Assembly: GCA_963377175.1 (NCBI GenBank)
Contig: CAUJNA010001592.1
Span: 1-64,000, forward strand
Direction: 5' to 3'
DNA from: Effrenium voratum
Taxonomy: Eukaryota; Sar; Dinophyceae; Suessiales; Symbiodiniaceae
DNA length: 64,000 nt
The notes under the pieces were generated by a model. The model searched no databases. It was given only the letters and a program-made list of their open reading frames with translations, and was not told the DNA's origin. Position numbers and translations under genes: made by a program. Each line of letters begins with the position of its first letter. The first letter of the stretch is position 1. Positions 8,455 through 54,580 of the stretch are shown here, piece by piece.

Positions 8455-8461
8455 TTTAGCT

Positions 8462-8646: not shown

Positions 8647-8647
8647 G

Positions 8648-12123: not shown

Positions 12124-12139
12124 GTTTACATATGTTTTC

Positions 12140-33364: not shown

Positions 33365-33513
33365 CTCGCTTTTCCAAGTACGAGAGCTTGGCTCAAGCGC
33401 TACCTTGTCTCAGTGGGGTTATGTCTCTGCACCACCCACCTGCGACCGGGCATTAATGAACCAACCTTGCCCATGAATCAACCCGTTCCATTATTGACTC
33501 AAACTTGCCAAGA
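33365..33513. other. Short spacer right of E2
   Basis: No gene. Contains CTTGGCTCAAG, a partial spliced-leader-like word that I do not consider significant. Confidence 0.4.
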
Positions 33514-34263: not shown

Positions 34264-34765
34264 TTAATAGGGTAGTATAAGCCTTCTTTCCTTACTACTC
34301 CTAGCCTGCTCTATGGACATCTCTGTGCGGACGACCCACCCGTTGGAGATTTCTTTATTTAAAAGGGCAGACACTGTGTTGGGCTCTGCTTCGGCGGCTT
34401 TCCAGTTGCCCGTGCGTTCTGCGAGCTCGTGAGGCAGGTCGGCGTGCTCTTTGAGCGGCCATTGCATGCTACGGGGCAATTCGGATAGGGCTCCTGCGGG
34501 CACACCTTCGGAGAGCAATGGAAGGAGTTTGACGCCCGGGTTATCCGATGCGGAGGCCAGTGCATGCAGCAGTGACAGCCGGTACGGCGCCGTTGTCGGG
34601 AGCCAGGCTGGTTGGGGCGGGCAGGTTTACTGCCGCGAAAGCAATCAGCGCTGCCTCTTCGGACTCCTGGGCCGTGTCCGAGCTGACGTGGGCGAGAATT
34701 TTGGAAATCAAATTTTGTGTTGTTGCAGCCAAGCGTGCGCTACCGTTCCCAGCGGTGACTGACTG
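34264..34765 (-). pseudogene. Downstream half of the host retroelement, RT-proximal block
   Basis: Minus-strand frames SVTAGNGSARLAATTQNLISK, AALIAFAAVNLPAP, then LSEGVPAGALSELPRSMQWP, LPHELAERTGNWKAAEAEP and SALLNKEISNGWVV. The NWK.AE.(D/E)P...L...EI..GWV pattern is one I associate with the segment before reverse transcriptase in dinoflagellate retroelement polyproteins; this is recollection, not a search. The left end (34264) is cut before any RT motif. It is the continuation of the minus-strand gene at 52824-54580, split by the giant retroelement. Confidence 0.5.
34761..34765 (+). repeat. Target site duplication GACTG (left)
   Basis: Identical to 52824-52828, immediately outside the TG...CA ends of the two LTRs. 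Confidence 0.9.
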
Positions 34766-35111
34766 TGTTAAAACCCTCTAGGCCCCGTGCCGAAATTGGG
34801 TAGCAGTTCTGAGGTCCTTGTTGGTGTTGCTTCCCAAGTTCCATTGATTGCCATTTGGCTCAAGACACAATTGAGGTTCAAGATCTGATGTGTGACTGCG
34901 GATATCCGTGATTGGCATTAGGAGGAAAACAACTGCTTGCGCCGCACTGTCAGGACTACTGGTGTGACTATCATTCCTTCTTCCTTACAACGTTTACACG
35001 GGTTCGGCTATAACGGCATCGTCCGTATACACCTTTCTACGTGGTTGGTATTAAAGCTTGAGGGTTCGGTGCACAGCGTCCCACGGGACGTCACCTTGCC
35101 GTCTCTTGACA
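34766..35111 (+). repeat. 5' LTR, 346 bp
   Basis: TGTTAAAACC ... CTCTTGACA. Holds GCCATTTGGCTCAAG at 34850-34864, one base short of the 3' end of the dinoflagellate spliced leader. No TATA or poly(A) signal recognised; dinoflagellate promoters usually lack TATA. Confidence 0.95.
34850..34864 (+). promoter_or_regulatory. Spliced-leader-like block in the 5' LTR
   Basis: GCCATTTGGCTCAAG compared with GCCATTTTGGCTCAAG of the dinoflagellate spliced leader: a single missing T. Present at the same place in all three LTRs of the window, including the diverged one at 23929. Confidence 0.55.
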
Positions 35112-35123
35112 GGTTATCAGCCG
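35112..35123 (+). other. Possible primer-binding site
   Basis: GGTTATCAGCCG starts right after the 5' LTR. It resembles the TGGTATCAG primer site used with initiator Met tRNA by many Copia elements, but is not an exact match; the host tRNA is unknown. Confidence 0.3.
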
Positions 35124-35209
35124 TAACTACAAGCTCTACACTGGACTGGGAGACAGCTGGTTTATTGCGGGTACAGGGACAATAAAGGAACGATAACCTA
35201 CACAGTACA

Positions 35210-38029
35210 ATGGCGTCTTCGGCGAGCCCAAGTACTGCAACTTTTGGGAACAGCAGCTCAGAGGGATCCAATGGATTGATGGCTCTTCCTGCGGTGATGG
35301 ATATGATTGCAGATTCACAGGATGAACCTGGGAGCGGAGGTTCCGCGCTATTCAGCGACATATCTACTCCCACAAGATCATGGAAGCAGATCGATGTTCA
35401 TCAGGAGTCGAAGAAAAGAGAATCCCCACCGAGAAGATCATCATCTTCGCCTGCGACACCACGGACGTCGCAGAAGGGCGTGAGATCGACATCGAAGGGT
35501 GGGAGGTCAAAATCACCCACCAGTGCAGATTTTCGCGCCGTGATCAAAGAGAAGAATAAGATGGAGGTGGAGATCGGGGAATATCAGAAGACACTTGATG
35601 AGATGTCGGCAGCAATGGCGAATCTTAACCAAGAAGACTATGGAAGCACCATCCGGATCCAGGAGCTGGAAAGACGATGCGAGATTGCCAGCAAGCAGTC
35701 GGGACATCTAGTGAGTCACCACCAACACCACATGGCTGAGGCATGGCGCAAGTTTGAGGAAGAAGCCCAACAGATGCGCAAGGTGGAAATGAACGCATTT
35801 CAGTACGGGGAGAAGAAAGACATGGAGTCGAATATTATAATGCAACAGATGAGGCAAGCTGAAGGAACTATCATGGAGCAGAAGCGGGAGATTGCATTGA
35901 TGAGATCCTACATGGCAAGCGAGAAGTCGGCCGCGCAGGAATCAGCTATACGTGCAAATCAGATACACCGTGAGGCTTCACAACAGATATCAGCCTATCA
36001 GCAACAGATCAGAGGCATAGAATCTTCTACATCTATCGAGAAGTTCAACGAGGAGGAGATGGTCCAAAGTCTGAAATCACAGTTGGAGCATGCACTCGTC
36101 AAGCGCCCCGAGACGTACTCTTTGGAGGACTCCAGGGAACAGCTGATGGCGAGGCTGAATGACGTTACAGTATTTGCGGAACAGGAATCGAAGAGAGCAG
36201 ATTGCTTGCTTCGCGAAAAAGAAGAGATCGTCAAACAGTATGAGTCCGACGTATCGATGAAGGACCAGATGATTGCTGTCGAAGGTGGTCATCGTCAGGA
36301 TGCGATTTTGGAGTTAGCCCAGGTCAAAGAAGAGAAACAAGAGGAACGGTGCACGATGGACGAGAAGTCGAAGGAGGCTGAGTACTGGAGACAGACAGCC
36401 AAGGGAATGTACGATGAGTACCTCGAGGAGATGCATGAGCTTCAGGGACAACTGAAGGAAAGAGAGGCGACGCTCAAGCAAGAAGAGAGTTTTGTGCGCC
36501 AACTCGATGCTGACAACGAGGAACTACGTGCACACAAGAAGCTGGAGATGCAGGAAGCCTCCAGCAGCAAAGATGGACATCGTGAACGAGCAGTAGTGAA
36601 ACGCGCTGAGGGAGGAACCCAGGCTAATTCAAGTAGGATAGACAAGAAGGTGGCTGGGTTAATCCCGTCATCGTCTTCGAAACAAATCCCTAATTCGTCG
36701 CTGATGCCAGGTTCGATCCTCTTTCCGTCTTTCGGTGATCCAATGATCGATGTACACCTATCCCAGATGCAAGGGGTTGTTGGGCATGTCCCACAATCCA
36801 CTACTACGACTGGTGGTGGTGATGGAGGGGGAAACAACGGTACTACACCCCCATTGGATTACGGTGGATTCCCGCCCAATGGGAATGGGCAGGGAGCGGG
36901 TCGACGTCAGTTGAGCCTCGCTGGTGGCGGAGGAGGACCTCCGGATGATCCACCCGATGATGAGGATGAGGATGACGACGACGAAGGAGATGAGGAAGAC
37001 GAGGAAGAAGAAGAGGAAGAAGACGATCGGACACGGAGGAGACGAAGGAGATCGAGAGATAACCGAGAGATCAAGAATGATCGACCGAGAATCTCGAGGA
37101 AAGAGGCCGAAAGAGTATCTATTCCGGCCTGGCCAAAGATCCATCAACTTGACACCTGGAAGATGCAACTGCTGATGAATGTTCTGAGCGCATGTGCAGA
37201 TCCAGATACCGACGCATGGACGAAATGGCTGGAGCAGGCTCTTGGGTTGAACCCAGACCTGGATTTGCTTAGCGATTCAGGTGGCGACAGATTTGCTACG
37301 ATAGATATTAAGATGGCCATGGGCATGCAGAACATGCTGAAACAAGCACCTGACGAAGCCAAGGACGTATACCTCGATGCTACACGACACTCTGAACTAC
37401 GACATCAACAAGGGGTGATCGTGAAGGGACGAGAGTTGGTGGCATTAGTTATGCAATCATTCAGAACTCTTGTCTACCACATCGAGCATCTATTCAACCT
37501 TGACTTTCCTGGCGACAAGAACTTGGTCATGTTCAGGAACAAATGGTATGATTTGCTGCTGAAGATGAGGAGCGAGGACAGACCCAGTAAGCTGGCTCTC
37601 AGAGACATCCTTTACAGGAAGATCAAAGGGAGCAAGAAGATGGAGTTCGGCCTCAATGCCTACCATAGACTACCGGACAAGCATCCTCAGAAGACGTATG
37701 AATTCTTATTGGCGTTGATCGACTATCAGATCAAGGCAGATCGGGAAGACCTGATGCTCGACATGAAGGAGAAATCGGTCAAGTCGATGATGAAGTCAGG
37801 CGGGAAGGATGCGGCTCCAGCAACTGGCAAACAGGAGAACCAGGGTGGCAAGGGCAGAAAGGGGAAACCCGGTGGACCTGATGCCGCTCCTGTGCCCCAA
37901 AAGCCAAGGCAAAGGGCCACGCTGGCAAGAACGGCAAGTCCGACGGTGCCAGCGACAGAGGCAAGAGTCCGGGCGGAAGCAAGGATAACCCCTGCTGGTA
38001 CCACTTCAAATCGGCGAAGGGGTGCGTGA
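35210..38029 (+). CDS. gag: Retroelement Gag, about 900 residues
   Basis: ATG at 35210 (MASSASPSTATFG), 98 bases after the LTR. Order: Ser-rich N-terminus, long coiled coil (about residues 110-470, rich in Glu, Gln and Met), Gly/Pro-rich linker (about 530-575), an acidic run (about 580-612) next to an Arg-rich run (RTRRRRRRSRD), a globular helical domain (about 630-860; IPAWPKIHQLDTWK, MLKQAPDEAKD, YDLLLKMRSEDRPSKLA) that I take as the capsid, and a basic Lys/Gly tail. The natural reading passes to the -1 frame somewhere in 37880-38029, where CWYHFKSAKGC begins the first CCCH finger. CCCCAAAAG at 37895-37903 lies there but is not a canonical X-XXY-YYZ slippery site in this frame. Confidence 0.8.
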   Translation: MASSASPSTATFGNSSSEGSNGLMALPAVMDMIADSQDEPGSGGSALFSDISTPTRSWKQIDVHQESKKRESPPRRSSSSPATPRTSQKGVRSTSKGGRSKSPTSADFRAVIKEKNKMEVEIGEYQKTLDEMSAAMANLNQEDYGSTIRIQELERRCEIASKQSGHLVSHHQHHMAEAWRKFEEEAQQMRKVEMNAFQYGEKKDMESNIIMQQMRQAEGTIMEQKREIALMRSYMASEKSAAQESAIRANQIHREASQQISAYQQQIRGIESSTSIEKFNEEEMVQSLKSQLEHALVKRPETYSLEDSREQLMARLNDVTVFAEQESKRADCLLREKEEIVKQYESDVSMKDQMIAVEGGHRQDAILELAQVKEEKQEERCTMDEKSKEAEYWRQTAKGMYDEYLEEMHELQGQLKEREATLKQEESFVRQLDADNEELRAHKKLEMQEASSSKDGHRERAVVKRAEGGTQANSSRIDKKVAGLIPSSSSKQIPNSSLMPGSILFPSFGDPMIDVHLSQMQGVVGHVPQSTTTTGGGDGGGNNGTTPPLDYGGFPPNGNGQGAGRRQLSLAGGGGGPPDDPPDDEDEDDDDEGDEEDEEEEEEEDDRTRRRRRRSRDNREIKNDRPRISRKEAERVSIPAWPKIHQLDTWKMQLLMNVLSACADPDTDAWTKWLEQALGLNPDLDLLSDSGGDRFATIDIKMAMGMQNMLKQAPDEAKDVYLDATRHSELRHQQGVIVKGRELVALVMQSFRTLVYHIEHLFNLDFPGDKNLVMFRNKWYDLLLKMRSEDRPSKLALRDILYRKIKGSKKMEFGLNAYHRLPDKHPQKTYEFLLALIDYQIKADREDLMLDMKEKSVKSMMKSGGKDAAPATGKQENQGGKGRKGKPGGPDAAPVPQKPRQRATLARTASPTVPATEARVRAEARITPAGTTSNRRRGA

Positions 38030-39972
38030 AAGGGAATGAATGCACTTTTTCCCACAGCAAGAAGACGGAGCACAAGTTGGAGAGTATGTCCAAGGGGAAA
38101 GGAAAGGGCAAATCCAAATCCAGATCATCGTCACCAAAGAGAGATGATGGAGCATGCTTCGCGTTTCAGAAGGGGAAGTGCGATAGGGGGAGCGCTTGTA
38201 AGTACAGACATGAGCTCATCAAGAACAATTCAGCTCCAGCAACGTCAAATGACAAGGCGCAAGCCAAGTCGAAGGCTGCCGCCAAAGCCGCAGCGCCTGC
38301 CATTGCGAGGAGGGCCATCGCAATGCCCGCGATAGTCCTGAAGCAATCGGCTCCTGCGGGGAAGGTAAGCTTCAAGAAGGACGTTGATCATGTCGAACCG
38401 GACGAAGCCGAGACTATCTACCACGAGCACGATGACGACGCGATGAGCGAATCATCGAGATGGTCTGGCGAGTCCGAGATCCCCGAGAAAATGGTGTGGT
38501 TCAAGGAAGTGCTCGACGTCGACGAGAATGGGGAGATCACCTACCTCGAAGACGAGAGAAGGCAATGGGAACGAAAAGGAGAATGGTACGGTTATGAGGA
38601 CAATGAGAATGAGCCTTATCAGTACGTGTACGTCGACGAGAAGAAGTTCAAAAGCAGTGATCATCGTGAATTATCAGCCTATCAAGTCCAACGATCATTG
38701 ATACGTGCGAAGATACTGAGAGAAGTGGTGGATGATGTATATAAGAAGCACTACTTCCCGGTGACCAAGGAGAGCAGCATAATGTTCGAGTATGATCGGA
38801 ACAAGGACGAGATCAAGGAATCGGCTGTCGACTGGAAGAAACAGCATGGTATGCCGAAGAACGTTTTCGCCATGTCAACGTGCATCAGCAAACGGGTGAA
38901 ATGGTTGATGGACACCGGATGTGGTCATGATCTCATCGGAAGAGCCAAGGCGAAGAGCCTGGGTGTCGACATCGTGAAAGATGACGACGAGATCGTGTTC
39001 CAGACCGCGAATGGTTCCACTTCCACATCTGATGTGGCCAAGATAGTCGTGGACGAGTTGGACGAGACTGTCGAGCCGCATGTATTGGATGAGACACCCA
39101 CGGTATTGTCAGTGGGGAGGAGATGCATGAAGATGGGTTATGCATTTCACTGGATGCCTGGTAAACTACCTTTCATGGTTACGCCAAAGCAGGGATTCGT
39201 GCACTTGCAGGTCAAGGACGACATCCCGTACCTAGTGAGTGATGGTAAACTTCGGAGTAACAGGCATCGCCCTACGATAGACGACCTCAAGGAGCACTTT
39301 TCGGAAGTATTGGCGATGGTAACGAACGACGAGGCAGATCAGGGAGGTGACGATGAGAACGACGTCACACCCGCCGCTGTCGGTGAGTCCGCAGAGGCCG
39401 AGGGCGAACACCACGACGGGGCATTCGACTTCGGGCCACCCGGAGGAGCCGGTCCGGTACGTCCGCCTCCCGTGGCTGAGGAAATACCTGTAGATGTTGG
39501 GTCAGTCCCGCATCGACATGGTGATGCCGAAGCTCACGAGGAAGAGGTTGATGAAGATGATCCAGATGCCGGAATCGAAGTAGACGTGTACGAAGGATCA
39601 TCAATAAAGAGGAAAGTGGGAGTCCTCAAGAAGGACGCCAACTCCATAGCTCATTTGCTTACACACAGATACCGAAATCCCTTCTGCGAATCATGCGTCA
39701 AGGCAAAGATGAGACACTTCAGATCACGAACGGGAGCATTCAAAAGAGAAGTGAAGACGTTCGGTGACCTGGTGACGTTCGACTTTGTGACGGCATCAGG
39801 AGATCATGAAGTGGAGGCAGGTATGCGCTCATCATCCGGGACATATATACCGGAATTATCATGGCTTATCCCACCGCGAGAAGAGACACTGACTCAGTCG
39901 TCAGGGCTATCAAGCACTTCTGCGGGAGGAGGAAAATCAAGCAGGTATATTCGGATGACGGCCCGGAACTGA
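37880..39972 (+). CDS. pol: CCCH fingers, aspartic protease, zinc and first part of integrase
   Basis: In the frame of 38026. Two CCCH fingers: C-x9-C-x5-C-x3-H starting at 37996 and C-x7-C-x5-C-x3-H (CFAFQKGKCDRGSACKYRH) near 38157. Ala/Lys linker, acidic region, then the protease with WLMDTGCGHDLIG (DTG at about 38911). The pre-integrase zinc module follows (HRYRNPFCESCVKAKMRH, about 39660-39715), then the integrase start TFGDLVTFDFV with the first catalytic Asp (about 39780). The frame must change by -1 near 39815-39825, inside the integrase core, because YALIIRDIYTGIIMAYP continues in the next frame. A break inside a folded catalytic domain argues for an indel rather than programmed recoding. 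Confidence 0.85.
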
Positions 39973-42900
39973 TCAATGCGTGCGTGGAGCTGAAGCTGAA
40001 CCACGACCTATCGCTGCCTGGACGGCCGCAGAACAATTCCCTTGCAGAAAGAACAAATCAATTCATCATTGACCAGACTTCGGCTTGTCTAGTACATGCC
40101 GGTCTACCCACGTGTTATTGGGTGCAGGCCATCACCACTCTGTGCCATCTCATGAACATCGAAGAGGTGAACGGATCGAGTGCATGGATGAGGCTGCATG
40201 GCGAGGAGTTCAAGGGCGAGAAGATACCTTTTGGTGCGCTAGTGGACTTCAAGCCGAGTGAAGCACGAGGGGGAAAGAGGGAGAAGTTCGAGCCGAGAGG
40301 GGAAACTGGTATATTTGCTGGATATGTGTTGAGCACCGGCATGCATTGGGCAAACAAGTATCGTGCTTGGGCACTTACTGCATTTGCGGGTGCAGAGCTG
40401 AACATCAAGAAGGCAAAGGTTCCACCTCGGTTGAGAATGCCACATCAGACGGAGAGGATGATTCTGAAATCTCCTCTGACATTCCCAATACAACAGAAGT
40501 ACAAGGTTGCCAACGAGACTTTGGAAGGAATAGAGATGTCTATCGATGCAATCGGTCTGGATGCACGTGACCGCCTGATCGAGGATGAGGACTACGAGCC
40601 TGAATTGCTGCAGAGTGACGAGAAGCGACTGCTTGACGATGAAGTCGATCAGATCGCTGGTCTACTGCTCGACGATGGCCCGGAAGTAATCGCCGGAGAT
40701 CGGGGGGATCATGCAGGAGAAGAAGATGCTAGACCGAGCTCCTCAAAAGGGAAAGGAGATGGACACTCCAAGGGCGATGAGAAGGTTGCGAGGTCCGACC
40801 TTCCACACGTGTCAGTTGGACTACCTGGGGATGGTATCACGTACGTCAACGACGATGGCAAGGAGGTTAAAATCGACAAGGCCGGAAGACCGTATCCTGT
40901 CGGGAAGGATGGATTCAGGCTAATGAAGACATCGAGACCTCCAGAGTTCACTCCTGAAGAATGGAAAATGATGAGTAAATATTACACCAAGGAAGAGAAG
41001 GCCGAGGTGAAGGGCGGTGGCAAAAGGAAAGAAGAAGATCCCAAGAGTAAAGAGTCTGAGATTTCCGCGCCGGCAGAGGCACGGACATTACAGATGCCCG
41101 GTGGTAAGAGAATTCGAGCGATGCTTCGGAACCGCTGGGGTGGAGTAGAATGGCAGTACAATTGGGGATTGCGGAAGAACATATCAAAGATCAAGAACCC
41201 AATGGATGGGAAGCACTTGGCTGAGCTTGAATGGGTCAGGATTGTTGTTAATCCTGTCGACGGGGTGGTTGTTCTCATGGATTCCAAACAGTCCCAAGAC
41301 GTCATGAGACGAAACGTTCAGCTTGAGAAAGAATTTGAGTGTCTGGTGGTAATTTATGCCTGGAAGTTCAAGTCTGAGGAGCGATCAAAGTCGACTCCAA
41401 ACTGGACGAAGGCGGTTGCATCAGTCATGGAGAGTCATAATGACGAAGCTGAAACGGCATCGGGGACGGATCCATCGGTCGACGAATCGACGGACCTCAC
41501 CTGGTATGAATGGGAGGAGTCTGCTGAGATAGTTTCTGGAAAGGTGCCACTCGCGATGCCTGCGATAGGCGAAGACGGTGAAGCCAAGAAGTACCCATCG
41601 ATGCCGTGCGTGACTTCTGAGCGAATACAGCACAGAGAGAAAGCTGTGAAAGTTGTACGATTCTTCGACGCTTTAGTATCCAGGCCGGTAGGCCGGAAAG
41701 AGATGTTGACCAACCCTGATGCATTGGCATCAATGAAGAAAGAGTGGTCGGGATTAATCGACCAGGGGGTCTTCGATCTTGGCGCGGTGCGCGAATATGA
41801 CGCTGTAGCCAGAGAAGCAAAAGCGAAAGGGGAAGAAATACACATGGCTCGCGCACATGGCATTTGCGTTGAAAAGCACTCACAGTTGCCTGTTGGTGAT
41901 CCTAAGAGGAAGTTCAAGGGTAGAGGCGTGTTGCTGGGGAACCAAGTGAAGAACCAAAGCTTTGAGGCTGCGATGTTTCAAGATTTGGGGAACTCCCCTG
42001 CTTCATTTGAAGCCTCGCGTTGGGCGGATTTTCTGGGTTGTCATGATGGCTGGGATGTGCAGATGGCCGACGCTGTTCAGGCGTATATACAGGCCACCTT
42101 GAGAGGCACGCCGTGTTGGATTGAATTGCCACCGGAGGCCGTGCCAAGTGAATGCAAATGGGATAAGTACAGAAGACCAGTCGTCCCGTTGAGGAAGGCG
42201 CTGTACGGACACCCAGATGCGGGAACATTTTGGGAGCAGCACTGCGATGAGTCGGTGCGTGCCGTTGGTTTTGAGCCCATCGGCGAAGAATGGCCTTCAG
42301 TGTACATTCATGAAAAGCTCCAGCTTGTTCTGGTTGTGTATGTCGACGACTTCAAAATGGCAGGGCCGCAGAAGAACCTTGCCCAAGGGTGGAGCATGTT
42401 GCGTACACGTTTGAAGATTGAGCCCGAGACTGGACTTGACATGTACCTTGGTTGCAATCAAAGCAAGGGAAACGTCACTCTCGGGAACGGACACCGAGTA
42501 ACAACGGTGACCTATGACATGGAACAGTTCCTACGTTCCTGTGTCGACCGCTATCTTGAAGTGGCGGGCGACGTGAAGTTGAATAAGGTTGTCACCCCTG
42601 AGTTGCATGAAGAAACAAAGAATCACGTCTCACGGAAGCCTGCCAGAGAGGGGCCGTCAGTCGTGTGCAATTGGTGTAACAATCTTGTGCCCACCGACGG
42701 TTCTGCCACAGTGCCGGACCAACGGGGAGGGACTCCTGAGTTGGCCATGAAGGAGCCCGTGCGTGGACACCTTGCTCCGCATGCCGCTAGCGTACTGATG
42801 AAGTTGCTGTACGGTGCGCGGATTGCTCGCTTCGATTTGTTGCGGCAAGTGAATCGCCTAGCACGGAACGTGCATAGGTGGACTGACTCCGATGATCGGG

Positions 42901-43634: not shown

Positions 43635-43648
43635 CATCCAAAGAGGGA

Positions 43649-45682
43649 TTGCATGAGCATGAAGGACATGATCCGGTTGTTGTTGCCAAGGGACCCAGAT
43701 TGATGCGTGTGAAACCTCCACTCGCGGTTATGACACCGTTTGGGAGCAAGTGGCTTCGTTCCACTTGGTTTCTGAAGAATGGGTCATGGCTCAAAGTTGA
43801 GGATAGAGTTGACCCGGGGCTACAATGTGTGCGAATTGATGGTTGGGTTGAACGCGCAGTTTGGCAGTTTCATCCCGTACCGGTCGCTGCACCGGCGCGG
43901 GAACGGTCTCCACGACCACGACCAATTCACGTCGGGTCCGGGGATGTTGACATGCAGTCCGTGCTGGCCGCATTTGTTGAAGAACTGTCGAACGAGCGCA
44001 TAGAGTTGAAGTGTGTTAACGACCTTGCTTTGGAAACGTTGCTCCGATTGAAATTGCTCATGCGTTGTCTGCATATCAATCACGAGCAGCTTGTCCCTGG
44101 TCGTTGTTTTGTTCCGTATCGCATTGCGGTGAAGCACAAGCCACAGTTAGCGCCGGGTATTGAACTCGCGATGGTCAAACACGACGGTGGTGTGCTTCGC
44201 GCTCCTGTTCATGTCTCGCTTCCTGGTATGAGAACTCGCACAGTCGTCACTCTTTACAGTGTTGACTTGGCTCGGCCCATCGTGCTGATGGCATGTTCCG
44301 AACCACGTAACTGGTTCACTGCTCTTGCCCGCCATGACGGGCCGCAGGTTGTCACCATAACTCTGGTTGATGACTTACTGAGCGAGTACGGGGGGAGAAT
44401 CGCCAGACATGTGCTTACCAAACCTTCCGATTTGTTGTTCTTCGCCGGGCCTTGCACGGGGGGATCATCATGGGCACGCCTCAACAAGACTCGCGGAATT
44501 GACACCGCAGAGAAAATCGAGGCCAAACAAAGAGAATTTTGGAGATTGTTTGAACGGTTCGTTGAAATTAAACGGCATGCCATGACAAAACGAGCTGCGA
44601 TTTTGTTTGAGTTGCCTGGAAGTTGTGATTATTGGAAAGATGAGAGACTGCATGAGGTTGTGCAAGATGGGACTAGTCACGAGTTTGATGGGTGTCGCTA
44701 TGGCTTGAAACAAAGATATGCAAAGAAACCCATGCCAATCAAGAAACCATGGAGAGTTGTCTCATGGAACTTTGAACTTGGTGGCTCGTTGTCCAAGAAA
44801 TGCAATGGAAACCATGAGCATGGACCTTGTGCTGGTCGTGAAACCAAAGAAACCCAGTTGTACACGTCTATAATTGTGGGTGTGATCCTTCGCCGTTTTC
44901 GTGCTCGAGCAAGGTGCCTCAAACCGGCACCGTTGAAACTCGCTCTTGCTTGCATTACGCGAAGGAGATCGCGGAAGCACCAAGCTACTGCGAGCGAAAT
45001 CTGCACCACCCCAACTGCACAACCGAGGTGCTGGGCCAGTCCCGAACCTCTGGTGCATACGGGGAGCTGGGTCAGTCCCGAACCCCAGGCTTCAAGGAGG
45101 AGCTGGACGAGTTCGTCACCTCAATCTGAAGCTGGGATCGTATTGGGACAATTCCGTGGCTTCATTTGCAGCTGCTTATTTTGGGTTTTCCTGGTTCTGG
45201 AGAATATCATCAAGATGACTGCCAATCCGACTGTCGTCAACACGAATGAGTTCTTCTGCGTGCCTGTTGGGAAATCTAGGCAAGCAGCAATCTTCTTGGG
45301 AAATTTGGTGAAGAACGCCATCGAGGATGGCAAGAGGATGCCCAAGAGGATGGAGGTGAGCAGCGACCTGGGTATGTGCGTGAAGTGGATCGAGGACATC
45401 GGCGTCCCCGCTATTTATGCATACTCAGCGTACTATTCTGCCAAGGGCCGCGGGATGATGAAAGGTGAAGGGCAGTCTATGAGGGTTGCCTTAGAGTTCA
45501 TCAGCAAAGTTTTCGGACAGCTTTCTGCCGACGAATGTATGCTTGGATGGAGGGAATTCTGCAGCAAGGGAAAGAAGATCGTGTCGGCGCTGAACCAACT
45601 TTGCGGTGAGGCAACGATGCTGGCGAAGAACCCCGAGTTGCTCAACGTAACCAAGTATGCATGGAAGGGGCGGATATGTTGA
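43649..45682 (+). CDS. Methyltransferase-like cargo protein, then start of second cargo protein
   Basis: Begins 15 bases after the RNase H stop in a new frame. Residues 1-230 are unplaced (WLRSTWFLKNGSWLKVEDR; LARPIVLMACSEPRNW). Then LLFFAGPCTGGSSW (about 44434-44475), ILFELPGSCDYW (about 44600), CRYGLKQRYAKK and KPWRVVSWN. A Pro-Cys loop followed by a FE.P strand and a G.....KPWR..S element is the layout of C5-cytosine methyltransferase motifs IV, VI and VIII, and retroelement-borne relatives are known from dinoflagellates. No clear AdoMet motif I is seen. From ATG 45215 (MTANPTVVNTNEF) the same frame begins a different, helical protein that continues after a -1 change near 45670. Confidence 0.55.
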   Translation: MHEHEGHDPVVVAKGPRLMRVKPPLAVMTPFGSKWLRSTWFLKNGSWLKVEDRVDPGLQCVRIDGWVERAVWQFHPVPVAAPARERSPRPRPIHVGSGDVDMQSVLAAFVEELSNERIELKCVNDLALETLLRLKLLMRCLHINHEQLVPGRCFVPYRIAVKHKPQLAPGIELAMVKHDGGVLRAPVHVSLPGMRTRTVVTLYSVDLARPIVLMACSEPRNWFTALARHDGPQVVTITLVDDLLSEYGGRIARHVLTKPSDLLFFAGPCTGGSSWARLNKTRGIDTAEKIEAKQREFWRLFERFVEIKRHAMTKRAAILFELPGSCDYWKDERLHEVVQDGTSHEFDGCRYGLKQRYAKKPMPIKKPWRVVSWNFELGGSLSKKCNGNHEHGPCAGRETKETQLYTSIIVGVILRRFRARARCLKPAPLKLALACITRRRSRKHQATASEICTTPTAQPRCWASPEPLVHTGSWVSPEPQASRRSWTSSSPQSEAGIVLGQFRGFICSCLFWVFLVLENIIKMTANPTVVNTNEFFCVPVGKSRQAAIFLGNLVKNAIEDGKRMPKRMEVSSDLGMCVKWIEDIGVPAIYAYSAYYSAKGRGMMKGEGQSMRVALEFISKVFGQLSADECMLGWREFCSKGKKIVSALNQLCGEATMLAKNPELLNVTKYAWKGRIC

Positions 45683-48600
45683 GATCAATCGCGAACATCT
45701 GGGATCTCGCATTAGGCGTGGCCGAGGATAACGATGAACGGTCGTTCAAAGCAGCATTCCACCAGAACACCCCGGTTGGGGAGGTGTACAAAGAATTCAT
45801 CAACGACGAGTCATCCAGGGCATCGTCATCGAGAAGGTGGAGGAGCTCTGAGGAGTTCCAGACAACTGCAGAGTTTGAGAGGCACGACCGGAGAATCGCA
45901 AGATACAGGGATCGAAACTGGGGGAAAGTGTTCACGTTGAGCGTGATCAAGGCTCCCAAGATCGACTCCTACGGTCGTGGTTCCAAGGACGACTACCAGA
46001 AGAATTGGGACCTTGGGTTGATCTACCAGAATGAGCTGCAGGCATCGATGAAGAACCTCGCATATGCACTGAGGAGGGATGAGAATGCCAGCCAGAACAA
46101 CCTATTGCGCTGGATGATCTGTGGGTCAACCCCCAGTGACATCTCTGACGCGTGCATCGGAGCGGTCAATTCGCTCATGTGCGTCTCTTTCATCATGAGG
46201 AGATTGCAGCCATTGCTCGGTGAGAAGGACTCCAAAGATCAGTCGTATACAGCTTATTTCCGTCCAGACAAAAGGGAGCTGAACGATCTCTACCGGGAGA
46301 TTGAGTACGCCAGGGATTTCCTATGGTGCATCGATATGATCTATGAGTCGAAGCTGCCTGCGATGAACATCAACTCCATCAGTTTGGCACCGCACGCGGC
46401 TGACAGGGCCGCTGAGAACCAAGATCGGCGCAAGTGGGTAAGCTGGATGAAGGAGATCGAGAAGAAGGCCGAGAAGGACGTCATGATCGAATTCTTCCAG
46501 AATAAATACTGCACGATTCATGAAATCGAGAGGGAACTGGAGAAGTACCCCGAGGATTTCGTGGTTGGGGAAGAGCCGACATGGTGGGTGATGGGCTCAT
46601 CGAAGACGGAGCCGCCACGGAAGACGGAGCGACAGCAGAAGTCGGCATCGAGCTCCGGGCAAAGGAGTCAAACCGCTGGTGGGTCAGTCCCCCAGCCGGG
46701 AGCTCCAAGTGGGGGGTCGCAAGCCAGCGATGCTGTCAAGATCGACAACGAGATCATCGACTCCATTTTCCGAATGAACTCTGGCGGTGACGACGACAGA
46801 TGGGTAATTATCAACCCAACTGCTGGACACGATACCTACACTTCATTCGAAGGGGGTACCACTTTGGGCGGCGCGACTGTCAATGTGAAATTCAACATAG
46901 ACAACAATACGGGGTACCCAATCATACAAACTGTATTTGGGCCGTGTCTTGCAGAAGGCAAGAACGCAACATATTGGGAGTGTATGCTGAGATGCCTGAC
47001 CTCTTCGCTATTGCACTTCGAGGAGAAGACCAGCGCGGAGAAGATCATTCTTTCCTATGTTGGGAAGGGAAATGCGGCATGGCTACAGCTGTATGCTTTC
47101 TTGTGTGCCCAAACAGGATGCTTGATTACTGGACGCCTTCCGGGCGCCAAAGCCATCAACGCGTTGATTCAGGCGGAGAAGAACCCGGACAACGCACCTG
47201 GACAGTTGAACCGGATTATCAATAGGCAGAAGAGGAGCCCCATTGGCGAGGCGACGATTCGCGACATGATGATCCACAAGAAGAGCTTCTTGGTCCTGGA
47301 TTGGCCCCTGAGGGCCGTCAACTCAAAAGGGAGCACGAAGACCTTCCAGATGATGGTCAACGAACAGGGATGGACAAACATCGAGGAGAGATCATACTAT
47401 GGGTCGAGTGAGCAAGTCTCCTCACCCAACGACACGTTGAATATCATCTCCCGATTGCAGAAGCTGGATAAGCTCATCGCTGAACGGCGGAGGCGAGACA
47501 TGGATGACTCACCAATGTCGGTGCACATCTGGATGTCGCTATATGATTGGGTGTGCATGAGAGGATGCGGATGGCAGGTGACCGCCAACCCCATCATCGA
47601 CTCCCTGCAGAAGGCGATATCTGACCTCGTCAACACATGCAAGGGCCTGGTCGTGGTGTGCGTGAATCGCGATGTTGCTTTCCATGGTGGAAGAGGGGAC
47701 TTGGGGACGATCGCCAACAAGGTTAGCGAGATCTGCAAGGCGGCAGGCGCGCTGGTGACCGAGAACGATCGCCTGTGGCGCGTGGTCCATGCGCTCACAG
47801 GAAAGAACTACAAGATCCCTGGGAGCTCGAACTTGCAACACTTCCTCCTGAAGCGACTGCTGATTGAGAAATCCATCGATGCGGTCGCACCAAGCAACGC
47901 GTTTGTGTGTGAGCTGGAGGGGACGTGCATAAACGAGCCCGACCTTCGATTCAACATCCCGAAGAACATGGAGGAATCGAAGGTGAAATTCGAGTACAAG
48001 CCGACCTTCACTGCACAGTCGAAGAGGAAACAAGAGCGGCAAGATGAAGGACACGGCGAGCAGGATGCTTTTGGGAAAGCCGATGCCGGTGATCAACGTC
48101 TTCGATGGTATACGGTCACGGAGCTCAGCAAGTTTATCTGCGAACTTTGCGCTAAAGAGATGCAGATGAGCAAGTCGAAGGTGCTCGGACCGAATTCGAA
48201 GTACAATCCCTCTTCTTGCGTGAACTGTTGCGCGAACTGGAACGCGGACACGAACGGTATTGCAATGTCTATCGAGGGGAAGAAAATGTACACGCGCCTC
48301 TTCGCGGAATGCGTGGTGGCAATCCCCGACCTTCAAAACCTCATGGTGGACGTCAACAATATCCAGGCCATGATCACGATCATACGGGAGCTCGCGTATT
48401 CAAGGCTGAAGAAGGAGCTTTCTCACGTGGGATTCGTGAGCATGACTGTGGATCAAGCAGCGCAGTTCTACAACAACGGTCACGGGAAGCAATTGTGCGC
48501 ATCCCGGGATGTGATCGTGTGCAAGAATTCCGAGGGAGTCGAGGAGAGGATGTCCATCTTCTTGATAGGCAAGGATCTCGGCAATGTGGCATATTCGTCA

Positions 48601-49032
48601 TGGATCAAGAGTGTGCTCGACCAAGGGACGATGTATGAACTCCTGGGACAAACCACGAACGAGGAATCCTTGGGAGACGTCGTCGAGATGGTGTTGGGAT
48701 TCTTTGAGGTGATGTCGTACTTCCAGCACGAACTGCCACTGTGGAAGGATGCATGGAAGATCAAGAGGGAGTTCGAGCAGTCAATAGTGCGACACCTCGC
48801 TGGGAACGTGACCCACACGACGGGCCAGAACAGAAAGCGGAACAAACCGTCCGCACAGCTCGGCGTGCCCACGAAGGAGGTGCTTGACATCATGAACAAG
48901 GTCAAGCCCAGACATCCACGATCCCTGATCACCGAGCCCTCTGCACAAGGTCCAAGAGAAAGGCCACGGAGGGCGAAGATGAGGGTCTTGGTCAAGCACC
49001 AGACCCGAGTCGAAGTTCTCAGCCAATACTGA
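45661..49032 (+). CDS. Large cargo protein of unknown function, about 1,120 residues in this frame
   Basis: Continues the protein begun at 45215 (about 1,280 residues in all). Regions: helical part to about 46570; Ser/Gln/Pro-rich linker (46600-46740); a folded region with DDRWVIINPTAGHDTYTSFEGG, FGPCLAEGKNATYWECMLRCL and HKKSFLVLDWPLRAV (the first and last are given as short pieces); KGLVVVCVNRDVAFHG and GALVTENDRLWRVV (about 47640-47790); and a possible zinc site FICELCAKEM...SSCVNCCANW (about 48136-48240). Then a helical C-terminus. I recognise no polymerase, kinase (no P-loop), ligase (no KxDG) or protease signature. Being conserved and open over 3.3 kb in a mobile element suggests it serves the element. 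Confidence 0.55.
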   Translation: MEGADMLRSIANIWDLALGVAEDNDERSFKAAFHQNTPVGEVYKEFINDESSRASSSRRWRSSEEFQTTAEFERHDRRIARYRDRNWGKVFTLSVIKAPKIDSYGRGSKDDYQKNWDLGLIYQNELQASMKNLAYALRRDENASQNNLLRWMICGSTPSDISDACIGAVNSLMCVSFIMRRLQPLLGEKDSKDQSYTAYFRPDKRELNDLYREIEYARDFLWCIDMIYESKLPAMNINSISLAPHAADRAAENQDRRKWVSWMKEIEKKAEKDVMIEFFQNKYCTIHEIERELEKYPEDFVVGEEPTWWVMGSSKTEPPRKTERQQKSASSSGQRSQTAGGSVPQPGAPSGGSQASDAVKIDNEIIDSIFRMNSGGDDDRWVIINPTAGHDTYTSFEGGTTLGGATVNVKFNIDNNTGYPIIQTVFGPCLAEGKNATYWECMLRCLTSSLLHFEEKTSAEKIILSYVGKGNAAWLQLYAFLCAQTGCLITGRLPGAKAINALIQAEKNPDNAPGQLNRIINRQKRSPIGEATIRDMMIHKKSFLVLDWPLRAVNSKGSTKTFQMMVNEQGWTNIEERSYYGSSEQVSSPNDTLNIISRLQKLDKLIAERRRRDMDDSPMSVHIWMSLYDWVCMRGCGWQVTANPIIDSLQKAISDLVNTCKGLVVVCVNRDVAFHGGRGDLGTIANKVSEICKAAGALVTENDRLWRVVHALTGKNYKIPGSSNLQHFLLKRLLIEKSIDAVAPSNAFVCELEGTCINEPDLRFNIPKNMEESKVKFEYKPTFTAQSKRKQERQDEGHGEQDAFGKADAGDQRLRWYTVTELSKFICELCAKEMQMSKSKVLGPNSKYNPSSCVNCCANWNADTNGIAMSIEGKKMYTRLFAECVVAIPDLQNLMVDVNNIQAMITIIRELAYSRLKKELSHVGFVSMTVDQAAQFYNNGHGKQLCASRDVIVCKNSEGVEERMSIFLIGKDLGNVAYSSWIKSVLDQGTMYELLGQTTNEESLGDVVEMVLGFFEVMSYFQHELPLWKDAWKIKREFEQSIVRHLAGNVTHTTGQNRKRNKPSAQLGVPTKEVLDIMNKVKPRHPRSLITEPSAQGPRERPRRAKMRVLVKHQTRVEVLSQY

Positions 49033-49625
49033 GAAGGAGGACAAGAAGCAGCGTGTGATCGACGGGCGGAGAGCGGCACTAGGGTTCCTGGAGTCAATGG
49101 AGAAGTGCATGGGAGACATGGGGATCTGTAAGAAGTGCGCGAACCTGGCCCACGACGGCGACTGCAAGGACATTGAGGAGGCTGCTGGAAATGAGAAGGC
49201 GATGAAGGTGCTCCGTGAGCTACTCAGCAGTGACCCTGTTCATCTGATGAAGACATGGGGGATACGGAGGAGCCGTCCTCATCAACGTCCAAGGAAAGAA
49301 AGAAAGGGGGACAAGCAGGGAAAGAAACAATTGAGATGTACAGCTACACTATTAATTTGGTGGAGATGGCTGACACGGCTGAGGGAGGAGAGCTACAATG
49401 TGGTGGCGTCGACCTCACCTACAACCCGTGCGGGGACAGCAGGACATTCAAGAAGACGCTTGAGATGGGATGCGACACCATCCCGTGCTACATCCCGAAG
49501 TACGGCGACGTGAGTGATGTGCATATGCCACGGGCATACGCGTCTATTGTTGACCCCAGGTACTTTCCCAGAGGTGCAATCCTTGAGCAAGTGGACGTGA
49601 TGCAACTTGGCAAGAGTGTCAACTT
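49031..49625 (+). CDS. Cys-rich linker leading to the Tpt1-like domain (two frame breaks)
   Basis: 49031-49250 in one frame: RVIDGRRAALGFLES, then GICKKCANLAHDGDCKD, a small C-x2-C...C motif. A -1 change at the GGGGG near 49250 leads to DTEEPSSSTSKERKKGG and MYSYTINLVEMADTAE, CGGVDLTYNPCGDSRTF, IPCYIPKYGDVSDVHMP, DVMQLGKSVNF. At about 49626 one base is missing relative to the 23-kb copy, which reads through here in frame. So this and the next two frames probably belong to one polyprotein. Confidence 0.6.
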
Positions 49626-51293
49626 TGCATTGCTCCTTTCGACGGTGCTCCACTATGCAGGATTGGTGATGATCGCTCGGTATTTACTTCAAGGGACCAA
49701 GCAAACCAGCTATCTCACGACCTATGCAGAGTCCTTCGACACAAGATCGGCAATTGCCGAGGAAGTGCTTTCAGGTGCGACGAGGGTGGATGGGTCGACA
49801 TTGATGCTGTCATTGACGACCGAAACAACGACATATTCCCACCTAACACCTCGAGAGCGAAACGATACATGGGCATCATGGAGGTGATCAAGTGGCAGGA
49901 ATCCGGAAGCAAGAAGTCGAGATTCCAGGTTCTGGCAGCAAGGTTTCCGAGCATCATGAACCCGAACGACACGAGGGCAGCCAGGGAGGAAATGAACAAG
50001 GCTGGCGTGGATCGGGACGACATCGACAGGATGTTCAACAGATGCGATGGATGGTACAGACCTTGGTGCATCCGAGTCACAACCGGTCACAGTGATTTTG
50101 GATTCATGAGCTCATCCGCACTGGCGAATAGGTATTCCGCAAGAATGGGTGATACTCTCGGAGGAGCATTCCATGTGACGTATGTGGAAAACCTGCCAAG
50201 CATCGTACGCTGTGGGCTAGTCCCCGGCGGAATCGATGGCGGTAACAGGCTAGCACTGCACTTCGGGGCGTTTGCTCCATGGGATGAGATGAACGTGGCG
50301 ACGAAGACAACGCTACGGAACGTGAGGAGAGGGGATCCGATTGCGATCATCTATATTCCCAGTGCAACCCTCGCGCGGTATGGGGCTGGAGTCGCGGCTA
50401 ATGGGACTTTCATGGTCTTTGACGTGATCCCGTTCTATGAGGTCAAGTCCATTTGGATTGGCAAAAGCAACGGAGGGAAGCGCCTGGAGTACGCTGACAT
50501 CAAGAGGGCGTACTCGAAGTGTGTGGAGAACGAGATCTGCCCTGGCTTTGTCAACTCTTCCCAAGAGTCGGCTGCGATGTTCCTCCAGAACGTCGCAAAG
50601 ATCAGCGAGAGGATGCCGGAGACTGAGACAGGTGCCGATAATCTGCACTACATCGTTGACATGGTTAATCGTGCTTGCGAACTCTATCGAAACAACAAGA
50701 TGGAAGAGTTCAACGCACAGGTCAACGAGGTCCGGGACGAAGTCAGCAAAGTCGTCATCCTGAATGATGAGACATGGGAAGGACTGAGGTGCCGGATATG
50801 TCCATCATGTGCGACCGCGATCCCCACCTGCTTCTGCTTATGCCTGGAGTGCGAGGCACAACTGATCTCCATCGGAAGATACTACATTCACATCAAATCC
50901 GATGACGAGGAGGACAACCAAAACCCCAACGTCTCTGGAGATGCCAGGCGTGCACAGGAAGAAGCTAACCACGATGCGGCAGCACAGGAGGATGAGGACG
51001 AAGCGGAGGAAGTTCCGGGAGAAGATGACGACATGGACACGCAAGGATATACATCCGGCTATGCGTCAGAGGAAGAAGACGGCGGTTGGCATTACCGCGA
51101 CACCGATCTGGCGTCACGGGACATTATAAGTTCCCAACGGATGGCGATCTGCCTTGACGAGCCGCGTGAGGCTCAGTACATGGCAGGATTTATCGCACTC
51201 CAGCTGTCCAAGATGTGGGGGATGTTTGAAGGTGGTGAGGATAGAACGATGATTGCCAAGCTCGAAGGGAGAGGGCTGCCCTTACCACAATGA
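49626..51293 (+). CDS. Tpt1/KptA-like RNA 2'-phosphotransferase domain protein
   Basis: Domain at about 49680-50470. Family landmarks are in order: NQLSHDLCRVLRHKIGN (Arg-His at 49737-49742), GGWVDIDAVI, WCIRVTTGHSDF (Arg at 50073 and the GHS motif), AFHVTYVENLPSIVRCGLVPGG in place of LYHGT...I...GL, and GNRLALHFG (Arg at 50247, His at 50259), then PIAIIYIPSATLARYGAGV and NGTFMVFDVIP. The Arg-His-Arg-Arg set used by Tpt1/KptA is therefore kept. These enzymes remove an internal RNA 2'-phosphate using NAD+, as after tRNA splicing by a fungal-type ligase. A helical tail, a Cys cluster CRICPSCATAIPTCFCLC and an acidic region follow. The HGT motif is replaced by HVT, which may matter. Confidence 0.75.
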   Translation, partial: CIAPFDGAPLCRIGDDRSVFTSRDQANQLSHDLCRVLRHKIGNCRGSAFRCDEGGWVDIDAVIDDRNNDIFPPNTSRAKRYMGIMEVIKWQESGSKKSRFQVLAARFPSIMNPNDTRAAREEMNKAGVDRDDIDRMFNRCDGWYRPWCIRVTTGHSDFGFMSSSALANRYSARMGDTLGGAFHVTYVENLPSIVRCGLVPGGIDGGNRLALHFGAFAPWDEMNVATKTTLRNVRRGDPIAIIYIPSATLARYGAGVAANGTFMVFDVIPFYEVKSIWIGKSNGGKRLEYADIKRAYSKCVENEICPGFVNSSQESAAMFLQNVAKISERMPETETGADNLHYIVDMVNRACELYRNNKMEEFNAQVNEVRDEVSKVVILNDETWEGLRCRICPSCATAIPTCFCLCLECEAQLISIGRYYIHIKSDDEEDNQNPNVSGDARRAQEEANHDAAAQEDEDEAEEVPGEDDDMDTQGYTSGYASEEEDGGWHYRDTDLASRDIISSQRMAICLDEPREAQYMAGFIALQLSKMWGMFEGGEDRTMIAKLEGRGLPLPQ

Positions 51294-51852
51294 CTTCAGG
51301 AGGTACCCCAACATCACTGAGCATGATCAGGAAGGTATACTTTTGCCATCAACAATAACGAAGATTTCTCAATCGGAGAATGTTCGGACAAGAGCCTTCC
51401 GATCGGTTGAGGAGCGTGACGAATATATTCGTATGATGGTGAACAAATGCGAGGGACTATACACATTCTACAAGCTGTGGATTGCAGCGAGAATCCTCGA
51501 TGTCACCAAGGAAGAAATGAAGCTCCTGGTCAAGGACCGAGTGCACCCGGTGGGTGATATTATTTTCAGATGTTTTGCACTAGCTTTCAACTGTAAGTAT
51601 ATATCATTCGTGAGGGATGGCCTAAACCTTGGCAAGCATGGTTACGCGGTCAACGTGAGCGCCATCATCTCGGCCATCGACCCGAACAAATGCGACACAC
51701 CCCTGCTGGATTGGTGCCTTCGGAAAGGGCACTGGTTGCCGGAGGACTACAACAAGAAGTGTGTCCGGGCACGAGAAGCCCAGAAGAACTTGGACGAGGA
51801 GTTCCGCCGACGTACCCATAGGCTGTCCATCGGGGACAGGTATGCTTCGTGA
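51253..51852 (+). CDS. C-terminal part of the second cargo polyprotein
   Basis: Overlaps the previous frame by 41 bases; the sense passes from IAKLEG to EGCPYHNDFRRYPNI by a +1 change near 51270. About 190 residues, helical (RTRAFRSVEERDEYIRMM, FYKLWIAARILD, AVNVSAIISAIDPNKC), ending GDRYAS at 51852. No family recognised. It is the last coding sequence before the 3' tail. Confidence 0.6.
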   Translation: MPSSKGEGCPYHNDFRRYPNITEHDQEGILLPSTITKISQSENVRTRAFRSVEERDEYIRMMVNKCEGLYTFYKLWIAARILDVTKEEMKLLVKDRVHPVGDIIFRCFALAFNCKYISFVRDGLNLGKHGYAVNVSAIISAIDPNKCDTPLLDWCLRKGHWLPEDYNKKCVRAREAQKNLDEEFRRRTHRLSIGDRYAS

Positions 51853-52477
51853 AGATGATGATTGCGGTACGATGTGGGCCAGTCCCCATCTGTTACTTGC
51901 GTCACATCGACACTGTTTCGGTGGAACGACTTATGTCATGATTTATATTCATGTGTCCAAGATGAATGGATGTGTACATGGTTACATATTCCGACGACTA
52001 TGACGCTCCGGATATTCATGGATGGAATTATTACCTTATAGATGATATCTTTTCATTATTTATGCATTGTCCATGGTATCTGGAATGGCTATGATTTGCA
52101 TTGATTACTCACCGATGTTTCTTTGCCGGAGATATGCAGACCGATCACAAGCGGGCGCGTCTGGTGGACTTTTGTGGCCAACCCATTTATGGATGACAGC
52201 TGCGCGATGCGCAAATGCGGCAGCTGGAATGTTCACTGGCGGTCAAGTGAAGTGGCCACAGTGTATTATATACACCTGCATATGGATGTGTGCTTCGATT
52301 GGAGGATGAATGTTTCACTTTTCGTACAATCGAACCCGGCATGTTTCACAGCGAATGAACGGTGTAGTGATAGCAAGTAAAAGAGTGCACGACACGATTT
52401 CGTAGTTGAAGCCGTGGCCAGTGGAACGTTTTGTGGTGTTTGGACCGCATGATGAACAATGCGACCCAAATGGGGGA
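51853..52477 (+). other. 3' untranslated tail of the retroelement with polypurine tract
   Basis: No gene. The last 180 bases match the 23-kb remnant (GCCGTGGCCA.TGGAACGTTTTG). CCCAAATGGGGGA directly before the 3' LTR (52465-52477) is the likely plus-strand priming tract; the same tract precedes the LTR at 23845. Confidence 0.7.
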
Positions 52478-52823
52478 TGTTAAAACCCTCTAGGCCCCGT
52501 GCCGAAATTGGGTAGCAGTTCTGAGGTCCTTGTTGGTGTTGCTTCCCAAGTTCCATTGATCGCCATTTGGCTCAAGACACAATTGAGGTTCAAGATCTGA
52601 TGTGTGACTGCGGATATCCGTGATTGGCATTAGGAGGAAAACAACTGCTCGCGCCGCACCGTCAGGACTACTGTTGTGACTATCATTCCTTCTTCCTTAC
52701 AACGTTTACACGGGTTCGGCTATAACGGCATCGTCCGTATACACCTTTCTACGTGGTTGGTATTAAAGCTTGAGGGTTCGGTGCACAGCGTCCCACGGGA
52801 CGTCACCTTGCCGTCTCTTGACA
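52478..52823 (+). repeat. 3' LTR, 346 bp
   Basis: 342 of 346 bases equal the 5' LTR, without gaps. The spliced-leader-like block is at 52562-52576. Confidence 0.95.
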
Positions 52824-52828
52824 GACTG
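52824..52828 (+). repeat. Target site duplication GACTG (right)
   Basis: Matches 34761-34765. Confidence 0.9.
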
Positions 52829-53986: not shown

Positions 53987-54580
53987 CCCCTTTCCTTTCC
54001 CTTTACCCTTTTTTCTGGGTGGTTCCGCCTTAGGCGGCTTGGGAGCTGGGCGTTTGCCGGATCGTGCTGGATTAGTTGGTCGCTTGGCGGGCGGCGCCGC
54101 TAGGGGCTGTCTGCTTGTTCTCGGGCGAAGCATGAGCAGGGAGTGTATTTCCATGCGGCCGTGCGTGAGCTCATGGAATGCATCGTCCATGGACCATTTG
54201 CGTCGCAGTAGGTCGACGATGGTGCCCCAAATTTGGCGATCGGCGCGCAGAAGCTCCGAAGTTGTAACTGTGCGGAGTGAGAGGGCCGGGTCCGGCTGAA
54301 GCAAGGTCTAGTGCTTTGGCGTTAAGCAGATGCACTGCTTGGCAAAGGGCGAGCGCGTTGCGAAACACTTGCTGAATGCGATGCAGCCAGCCGGTGGTGA
54401 GTGCCTTGCCCTCCACGCTGATTTCAGGGGTATCATCGAAGAAAGCGTGTGCCAGAAGCTGCGTCTTGGTGCGCGCGGCTTTGTGGGCGCGCCTCTACGG
54501 CTTCCTGGTATTGGCGTGCTGAGAGCCGTAATTGTCATGGTATCCACTTAAAGTGCTTGGATTTGGTCATCTTGTAGACC
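53987..54580 (-). repeat. Inverted repeat arm 1 (594 bp)
   Basis: Reverse complement of 56547-57139. It encodes the Gag-like and Lys/Gly-rich segment just before the CCCH finger. Differences are mostly single bases and small indels. Confidence 0.85.

Follow-up and report, generated by a model that had tools for sequence, protein, structure and literature searches.

A high-copy Copia-type retroelement family of Effrenium voratum with a predicted Tpt1/KptA RNA 2'-phosphotransferase domain in a giant polyprotein

The element at 34766-52823 and its copies

The window analyzed in this study is a stretch of 64,000 nucleotides from the dinoflagellate Effrenium voratum (contig CAUJNA010001592.1 of assembly GCA_963377175.1, positions 1 to 64,000), and it contains an 18-kb Copia-type element with long terminal repeats (LTRs) at 34766-52823. 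The two LTRs are 346 bp each with 4 mismatches between them, and the TG..CA termini and the GACTG duplication on both sides of the element were read directly from the sequence, which confirmed the description of these ends in an earlier note made from the letters alone. That note had also assigned the element to the Copia type and placed an extra coding block after the RNase H. The assignment agreed with our Pfam matches (RVT_2, E=4e-9, and a weak rve match), and the block is real and lies between the LTR pair. The features of the element, together with a fragment of a relative in the same window, are as follows.

34761-34765, no strand: target-site duplication GACTG, 5' copy, from the sequence
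34766-35111, plus strand: 5' LTR, 346 bp, from TGTTAAAA to TCTTGACA
34850-34864, plus strand: 15-mer GCCATTTGGCTCAAG inside the 5' LTR, resembling a relic of the dinoflagellate spliced leader (DinoSL)
35112-35141, plus strand: primer-binding region beginning GGTTATCAGCC; first bases not TGG
35210-38029, plus strand: gag-like N-terminal polyprotein part, first Met MASSASPS
38155-38211, plus strand: CCCH zinc-finger motif, weak Pfam matches under the curated cut-off
38890-39036, plus strand: aspartic protease, Asp_protease_2, E=8e-5, just under the cut-off
39819-40028, plus strand: integrase core, rve, E=0.0014, under the cut-off
41910-42476, plus strand: reverse transcriptase, RVT_2 (Copia type), E=4.3e-9, 36.8 bits against a cut-off of 31.6
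43716-44948, plus strand: domain A, after the RNase H, beginning FAGPCTGGSSW; approximate bounds
45210-48917, plus strand: domain B, about 1,235 aa, in-frame Met start; approximate bounds, dN/dS about 0.12
49701-50357, plus strand: predicted Tpt1/KptA RNA 2'-phosphotransferase domain, PF01885, E=1.8e-8
50358-51852, plus strand: C-terminal part, a Cys-rich stretch and acidic linker, ending at the common stop
52468-52477, plus strand: polypurine tract aaatggggga, directly before the 3' LTR
52478-52823, plus strand: 3' LTR, 346 bp
52824-52828, no strand: target-site duplication GACTG, 3' copy, from the sequence
22932-24139, plus strand: fragment of another subfamily, carrying a portion of the link and Tpt1 domain, then the 3' UTR and a truncated LTR

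By the positions of the Pfam matches, the order is protease, integrase and reverse transcriptase (RT)/RNase H, with the protease and rve matches below their curated cut-offs and with an RNase H assigned by a sequence motif only. The gag-like part had no Pfam match, and its PHROG matches were weak and of unknown or doubtful meaning (best E=0.0037). The 30 bases of the primer-binding region were identical in seven of eight other copies and carried one change in the eighth, and the last 30 bases ahead of the 3' LTR were unchanged in all eight. The conserved stretch 3' of the 5' LTR opens with GGTTATC, not with TGG; a tRNA scan and an Rfam scan of the window gave no matches.

A protein search with the Tpt1-bearing frame across the whole assembly (1.156 Gb, 3,699 contigs) scored 77 places of 2,510 first-look candidates, and these copies showed a protein identity of 97-100%. 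We checked both ends of ten copies, eight of them with frames of at least 3,200 aa. The 5' LTR was present in nine and the 3' LTR in all ten (one of these 3' LTRs was interrupted by a contig end), while in the remaining copy the 5' LTR was not seen in the fetched stretch. Exact 5-bp duplications were found in six of the eight copies with both ends complete, and the LTR pairs of these six differed by 1-4 substitutions, plus indels in three. The two copies without a duplication had 16 and 18 differences between their LTRs; they might be recombinants. Other loci repeat the arrangement of the element and have 5-bp duplications of their own, so it is not due to chance; to judge by the near-identical LTR pairs, this is a high-copy family that was recently active. 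Identical lengths of broken frames recurred on different contigs (a 1,049-aa frame in 6 of the 77 copies and a 1,688-aa frame in 4, by our own count); such copies with common breaks seem to have spread, perhaps with help in trans.

The relative in the window carries a cargo piece at 22932-23645 that is alignable to the cargo of the element, followed by the 3' UTR and a truncated LTR from 23845 to about 24139, as the earlier note had proposed for the region at 22.9-24.1 kb. Of 1,554 candidates from a search with this fragment, 150 places were scored (92-99% identity), with the window type again at the bottom of the list. The same layout with LTRs in other copies, and the cargo in more than one subfamily, supported the suggestion that the cargo is inherited by the family and is not a one-off capture. 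That suggestion had been set against the cargo occurring as a host gene outside LTR pairs. No such case appeared among the ten end-checked copies, one of which is without a 5' LTR in the fetched stretch, but the Tpt1 family itself is also found elsewhere in the genome, both in what may be a host gene and among repeats of other families.

In the window copy, stops and frame overlaps are found near 43.6, 45.6, 49.0-49.6 and 51.3 kb, and they are best read as the decay of one frameshifted member. We compared 10-kb pieces, from the RT to the end of the tail, of 20 copies, namely all 16 of the 77 with frames of at least 3,200 aa and 4 shorter ones. A single uninterrupted frame ran from the RT through domains A and B to Tpt1 in 16 of the 20 and reached the common stop in 13, and it was broken in 4; this sample was picked for long frames, and the fairer open-frame rate is 16/77. 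Whole frames measured 5,562-5,563 aa in three copies, with the maximum of 5,563 aa in two, and the first Met lay 99 bases 3' of the 5' LTR in all eight copies checked. Two or more separate cargo proteins had been expected after the RNase H, and separate cargo genes were rejected: because the frame is continuous in the open copies, the second coding block is the C-terminal part, nearly half, of a single polyprotein. The open copies thus have one open reading frame of about 5,550 codons that comprises gag, CCCH zinc finger, protease, integrase, RT/RNase H, domain A, domain B, Tpt1/KptA and the C-terminal region, its continuity being shown from the RT to the tail. To our knowledge, this is exceptionally long for a Copia element.

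The Tpt1/KptA domain and selection on the cargo

The one recognizable domain of the cargo, which the earlier note had not named, was assigned by profile to the RNA 2'-phosphotransferases of the Tpt1/KptA family, and its enzymatic activity is predicted. PF01885 matched above its curated cut-off of 26 bits in the window copy (35.0 bits, E=1.8e-8) and in two others (36.5 and 36.0 bits, E=6.5e-9 and 9.5e-9), and the truncated Tpt1 of the relative in the window scored 23.8 bits, under that cut-off. An alignment with E. coli KptA preserved LRH, GW-DID, IR-x-x-x-GHS, H-x-T and R-x-x-x-H, and the motifs LRH, DIDRMFN, IRVTTGHS, FHVT and GGNRLALHFG were present in 21 of 21 copies. The Arg-His-Arg-Arg tetrad of Tpt1 has been characterized biochemically (PMC6333775); three of its residues align clearly and are present in all 21 copies.

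Several observations weigh against this assignment. The third Arg of the tetrad has two candidates, one placed by MAFFT in DRMF (kept in 21/21 copies) and the other by hhalign near KKSRF (kept in 15/15). The domain is divergent and contains insertions, and the HGT motif reads HVT. A profile made from four KptA sequences gave only 8.2 bits (E=0.022), which was still above all 200 shuffles (best 4.8), and the hhalign comparison had E=0.011 but a probability of 3.8, with E=0.7 for domain B as the control. A sequence search of solved structures with the Tpt1 domain found no Tpt1 chain, and the AlphaFold2 model of the Tpt1 alignment was unusable (pLDDT 31.7).

Neither domain A (about 410 aa) nor domain B (about 1,235 aa) matched a Pfam family, and searches of NCBIfam, PHROGs and solved structures gave no firm hit, the best PHROG match of domain B being of unknown function (E=0.019). 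Cytosine methyltransferase (DNMT) cargo was rejected, as no Pfam match to this domain was found in the ten frames or the eight pieces that were scanned.

The selection on the cargo frames, which the earlier note had proposed to measure by dN/dS, proved to be strongly purifying in a sample that leans to conserved copies. Within the family, 13 fully open copies had synonymous/nonsynonymous segregating changes of 23/0 in RT-RNase H, 33/13 in domain A, 61/35 in domain B, 23/9 in the link part, 22/11 in Tpt1 and 37/17 in the C-terminal part. Omega was 0 to 0.25 across the polyprotein parts, with P<=1.6e-5 for every part, and was about 3 in the two shifted frames. For the comparison between subfamilies, ten Tpt1 pieces, none of them from the subfamily of the window element, were taken from the search with the 22.9-kb fragment; one contained stops and was left out, and 9 were kept. 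Between the 13 window-type copies and these 9, Tpt1 had pS 0.244 and dN/dS 0.10, and the synonymous divergence between subfamilies is about 0.25 (0.3 corrected). Domain B with its flanks was compared with the copy on contig C867 (L050), one of these ten, which is intermediate between the subfamilies at 97% to the window type, and had dN/dS 0.125 over 1,348 codons. The choice of copies for dN/dS was guided by the Tpt1 protein score and by open frames; this favors a low dN in the Tpt1 block and weighs against the estimate there. Taken together, every part of the cargo is under purifying selection. In codons 141-160 of the 298-codon Tpt1 block, only 2 codons varied among 22 copies, compared with 11-12 in each of the stretches 1-20, 61-80 and 101-120; this low variability may reflect strong constraint, recombination or an RNA-level signal.

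Other Tpt1 classes, proposed role and known systems

When the whole assembly was searched with PF01885, 150 rows of 558 candidates were scored, and none of these rows was recognized as Copia-type. The first row (C276:95860-96411) lies in a 277-aa frame and may be a host gene. Rows 2-39 were mostly full-length canonical domains, many of them within long frames, and an RVT_1 row was found 5.0-6.4 kb downstream on the same strand in 19 of these 38, compared with 1 of 111 other rows, itself the same locus. At one of the 19 loci, on C1335, an Exo_endo_phos match (32.7 bits) shares a 1,001-aa frame with the RT in the fashion of a long interspersed nuclear element (LINE). The LINE label rests on RVT_1 at the 19 loci and on this endonuclease match of 32.7 bits at one of them, which counts against a firm naming of the class. 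The rows beyond these look like further multi-copy classes, one of them with a frame of exactly 1,114 aa that we counted in 43 of the 150 scored rows. Taken together, there look to be at least three multi-copy Tpt1 classes besides the Copia family, one of them LINE-associated; the others include a 573-bp and a 624-bp class. At 19 of the 38 loci a LINE-like RT lies 5-6.4 kb downstream of Tpt1, which is therefore found with at least two unrelated kinds of retroelement, Copia and LINE-like. A DIRS link of the other classes was rejected, as by eye no Phage_integrase row lies near the Tpt1 rows. Among the matches listed from RVT_2 and rve searches, inspected by eye (a weak test), none was co-located on the same strand with either of the two unplaced classes of Tpt1; on C1241 an rve row and a Tpt1 row are 5 kb apart, on opposite strands.

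The window holds one frame-broken copy of a high-copy Copia family whose open copies encode a Tpt1-bearing polyprotein, and we consider it probable that Tpt1 acts on RNA during retrotransposition. Transcription from the LTR and translation into one giant polyprotein would follow from the anatomy. The protease would then free the parts of the polyprotein, and Tpt1 with NAD+ would strip 2'-phosphates from RNA ahead of reverse transcription. A cut tRNA primer, or element RNA after nicking and resealing or end-processing, may serve as the substrate, and 2'-phosphates left in place would hinder translation, priming or reverse transcription. Domains A and B may be substrate-binding or RNA-processing partners of Tpt1. 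Drosophila copia is primed from a tRNA half, and in the Hemivirus-like Pseudoviridae the primer is the 5' half of a tRNA cut in the anticodon loop; the start of the primer-binding region is compatible with such half-tRNA priming. The role of KptA in the clean-up of RNA ends in phages and cells (PMC9503650, PMC6333775) also agreed with this proposal. Because Tpt1 also travels with a LINE-like element, other retroelements of the same genome may gain from the same activity. On balance, we lean towards a wider suggestion, in which RNA 2'-phosphotransferase is a recurrent component of unrelated retroelements in this genome: it is fused into a Copia polyprotein, occurs in canonical form some 6 kb ahead of a LINE-like RT, and is carried by what look like at least two more multi-copy families with long frames. 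Retroelement RNA would then undergo a specific damage by cutting and sealing, or a chemistry at the ends of the tRNA primer, that favors elements supplying their own 2'-phosphate removal.

KptA belongs to the ADP-ribosyltransferase superfamily (PMC9503650) and TRPT1 ADP-ribosylates RNA in vitro (PMC9458441), so the domain could instead cap 5'-phosphate ends of RNA or cDNA with ADP-ribose or modify host nucleic acid, protecting the element or blunting host defence. The insertions and the change of HGT to HVT indicate that the specificity may have shifted, but the domain retains the residues which contact the 2'- and 3'-phosphates at the RNA junction, one of the four being ambiguous, and we regard this as a tentative alternative. 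It is rather unlikely that domain B, Tpt1 and the C-terminal part were captured as a whole module from another replicon, such as an RNA-virus polyprotein or another transposon, and first served there. KptA is indeed embedded in a few positive-strand RNA-virus polyproteins (PMC9503650), and an in-frame Met opens domain B behind a linker that is of low complexity and read-through-like (residues 1,000-1,097 of the translated piece), but neither the Tpt1-bearing frame nor domain B had a relative in two scans of viral contigs, and B itself is without a convincing family match beyond the one PHROG noted above.

LTR elements do transduce host sequence (PMC6431247), and the cargo might then be a host gene fragment that was transduced once and rides as a functionless passenger. 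This is very unlikely, in view of a cargo that is kept in more than one subfamily over a synonymous divergence of about 0.25 (0.3 corrected), with dN/dS 0.10-0.13, in frame with pol and in many copies. An assembly chimera or a chance frame is conceivable for one copy in one window, but copies on other contigs with their own target duplications and open frames of thousands of codons exclude it in practice, and we give it hardly any weight. The preferred reading remains that of a polyprotein-borne Tpt1 acting on RNA during retrotransposition.

The element shares with Ty1/copia elements (Pseudoviridae) the LTR pair, the 5-bp duplication, the protease-integrase-RT order, RVT_2 and the polypurine tract. 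It differs in its size of 18 kb, in the single frame of about 5,550 codons with nearly half of it after the RNase H, in Tpt1, and in a CCCH zinc finger where CCHC is usual for Copia. Among the giant LTR elements, Ogre belongs to Ty3/gypsy. Ogre and Burro likewise have an oversized internal region and extra domains, with a very long polyprotein in Burro (PMC6431247), but their extra domains differ, Burro is gypsy-like, and the word phosphotransferase is absent from the text of that review. The nearest precedent comes from retrotransposons with a DNMT in Symbiodinium and in the charophyte K. nitens, where LINE, DIRS and Gypsy elements carry a cytosine methyltransferase, the Symbiodinium Copia being described as without a DNMT domain (PMC5890265). 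A nucleic-acid-modifying enzyme in a retroelement polyprotein, many copies, purifying selection and more than one element class are common to both systems as described there, whereas the enzyme here is a predicted RNA 2'-phosphotransferase, found in Copia and beside a LINE-like element.

KptA has been reported in phages, sawfly nucleopolyhedroviruses, Bodo saltans mimivirus and a few RNA-virus polyproteins (PMC9503650), and it thus resembles our case as a KptA/Tpt1 on a genetic parasite, sometimes within a polyprotein. Those carriers are viruses, and the available text of that paper contains no 'transpos' words and names no KptA-bearing retrotransposon. No report of a Tpt1-bearing retroelement was found among the papers listed on dinoflagellate and copia retrotransposons, Tpt1/KptA, accessory-domain or giant elements and tRNA halves, and papers joining retrotransposon and TPT1 seem, by their titles and abstracts, to use TPT1 in another sense. 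Tpt1 is essential for fungal tRNA splicing, and its role is described as not obvious in lineages without a fungal-type ligase (PMC6333775). Retention of Tpt1 under selection by a selfish element, in more than one class of element, suggests that a natural substrate is connected with reverse transcription and offers a means to find it. Accessory enzymes of retroelements would also extend to RNA repair, beyond the DNA methylation (PMC5890265), exonucleases and chromodomains (PMC6338049) described in these sources.

A spliced-leader-like 15-mer and the neighborhood

The 15-mer GCCATTTGGCTCAAG in the LTR matches the 16-base end of the dinoflagellate spliced leader with one T missing, the leader sequence being that given in PMC12014239. 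It occurs at three places in the window (34850-34864, 52562-52576 and 23929-23943), all of them LTRs of the family, against 0.01 expected, and it lies at the same LTR place in more than one subfamily. It was complete in 9 of the 11 LTR sequences tested (2 of the window element, 1 of the relative and 8 of other copies). Its score of 26 was reached by none of 2,000 shuffles (best 24), and the best of 252 other stretches of the window had 22; the match had been noticed before it was tested. The 21-base spliced leader was absent from the window with up to 3 mismatches allowed. The match supports a dinoflagellate host, and it hints at a past event in which the LTR took up a copy of a trans-spliced leader.

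Outside the element, inverted repeats of about 2.4 kb (17538-19942 and 30991-33370, mostly 94-100% identical in pieces) bracket a 15.8-kb unit, which holds the fragment of the relative and a Pox_A32 packaging ATPase (24135-24803, minus strand, E=4e-10). An rve integrase (E=7e-8) beside long repetitive frames was found at 7465-8799 and 8648-12180, both on the minus strand, and the region 7465-12180 looks like a fragment of a Polinton-like virus. Elsewhere in the assembly, contigs C1, C2223 and C1647 carry many bacterial-type integrases and transposases, and they look like co-cultured bacteria. A second pair of inverted repeats lies at 53985-57141, with 90-98% identity in pieces.

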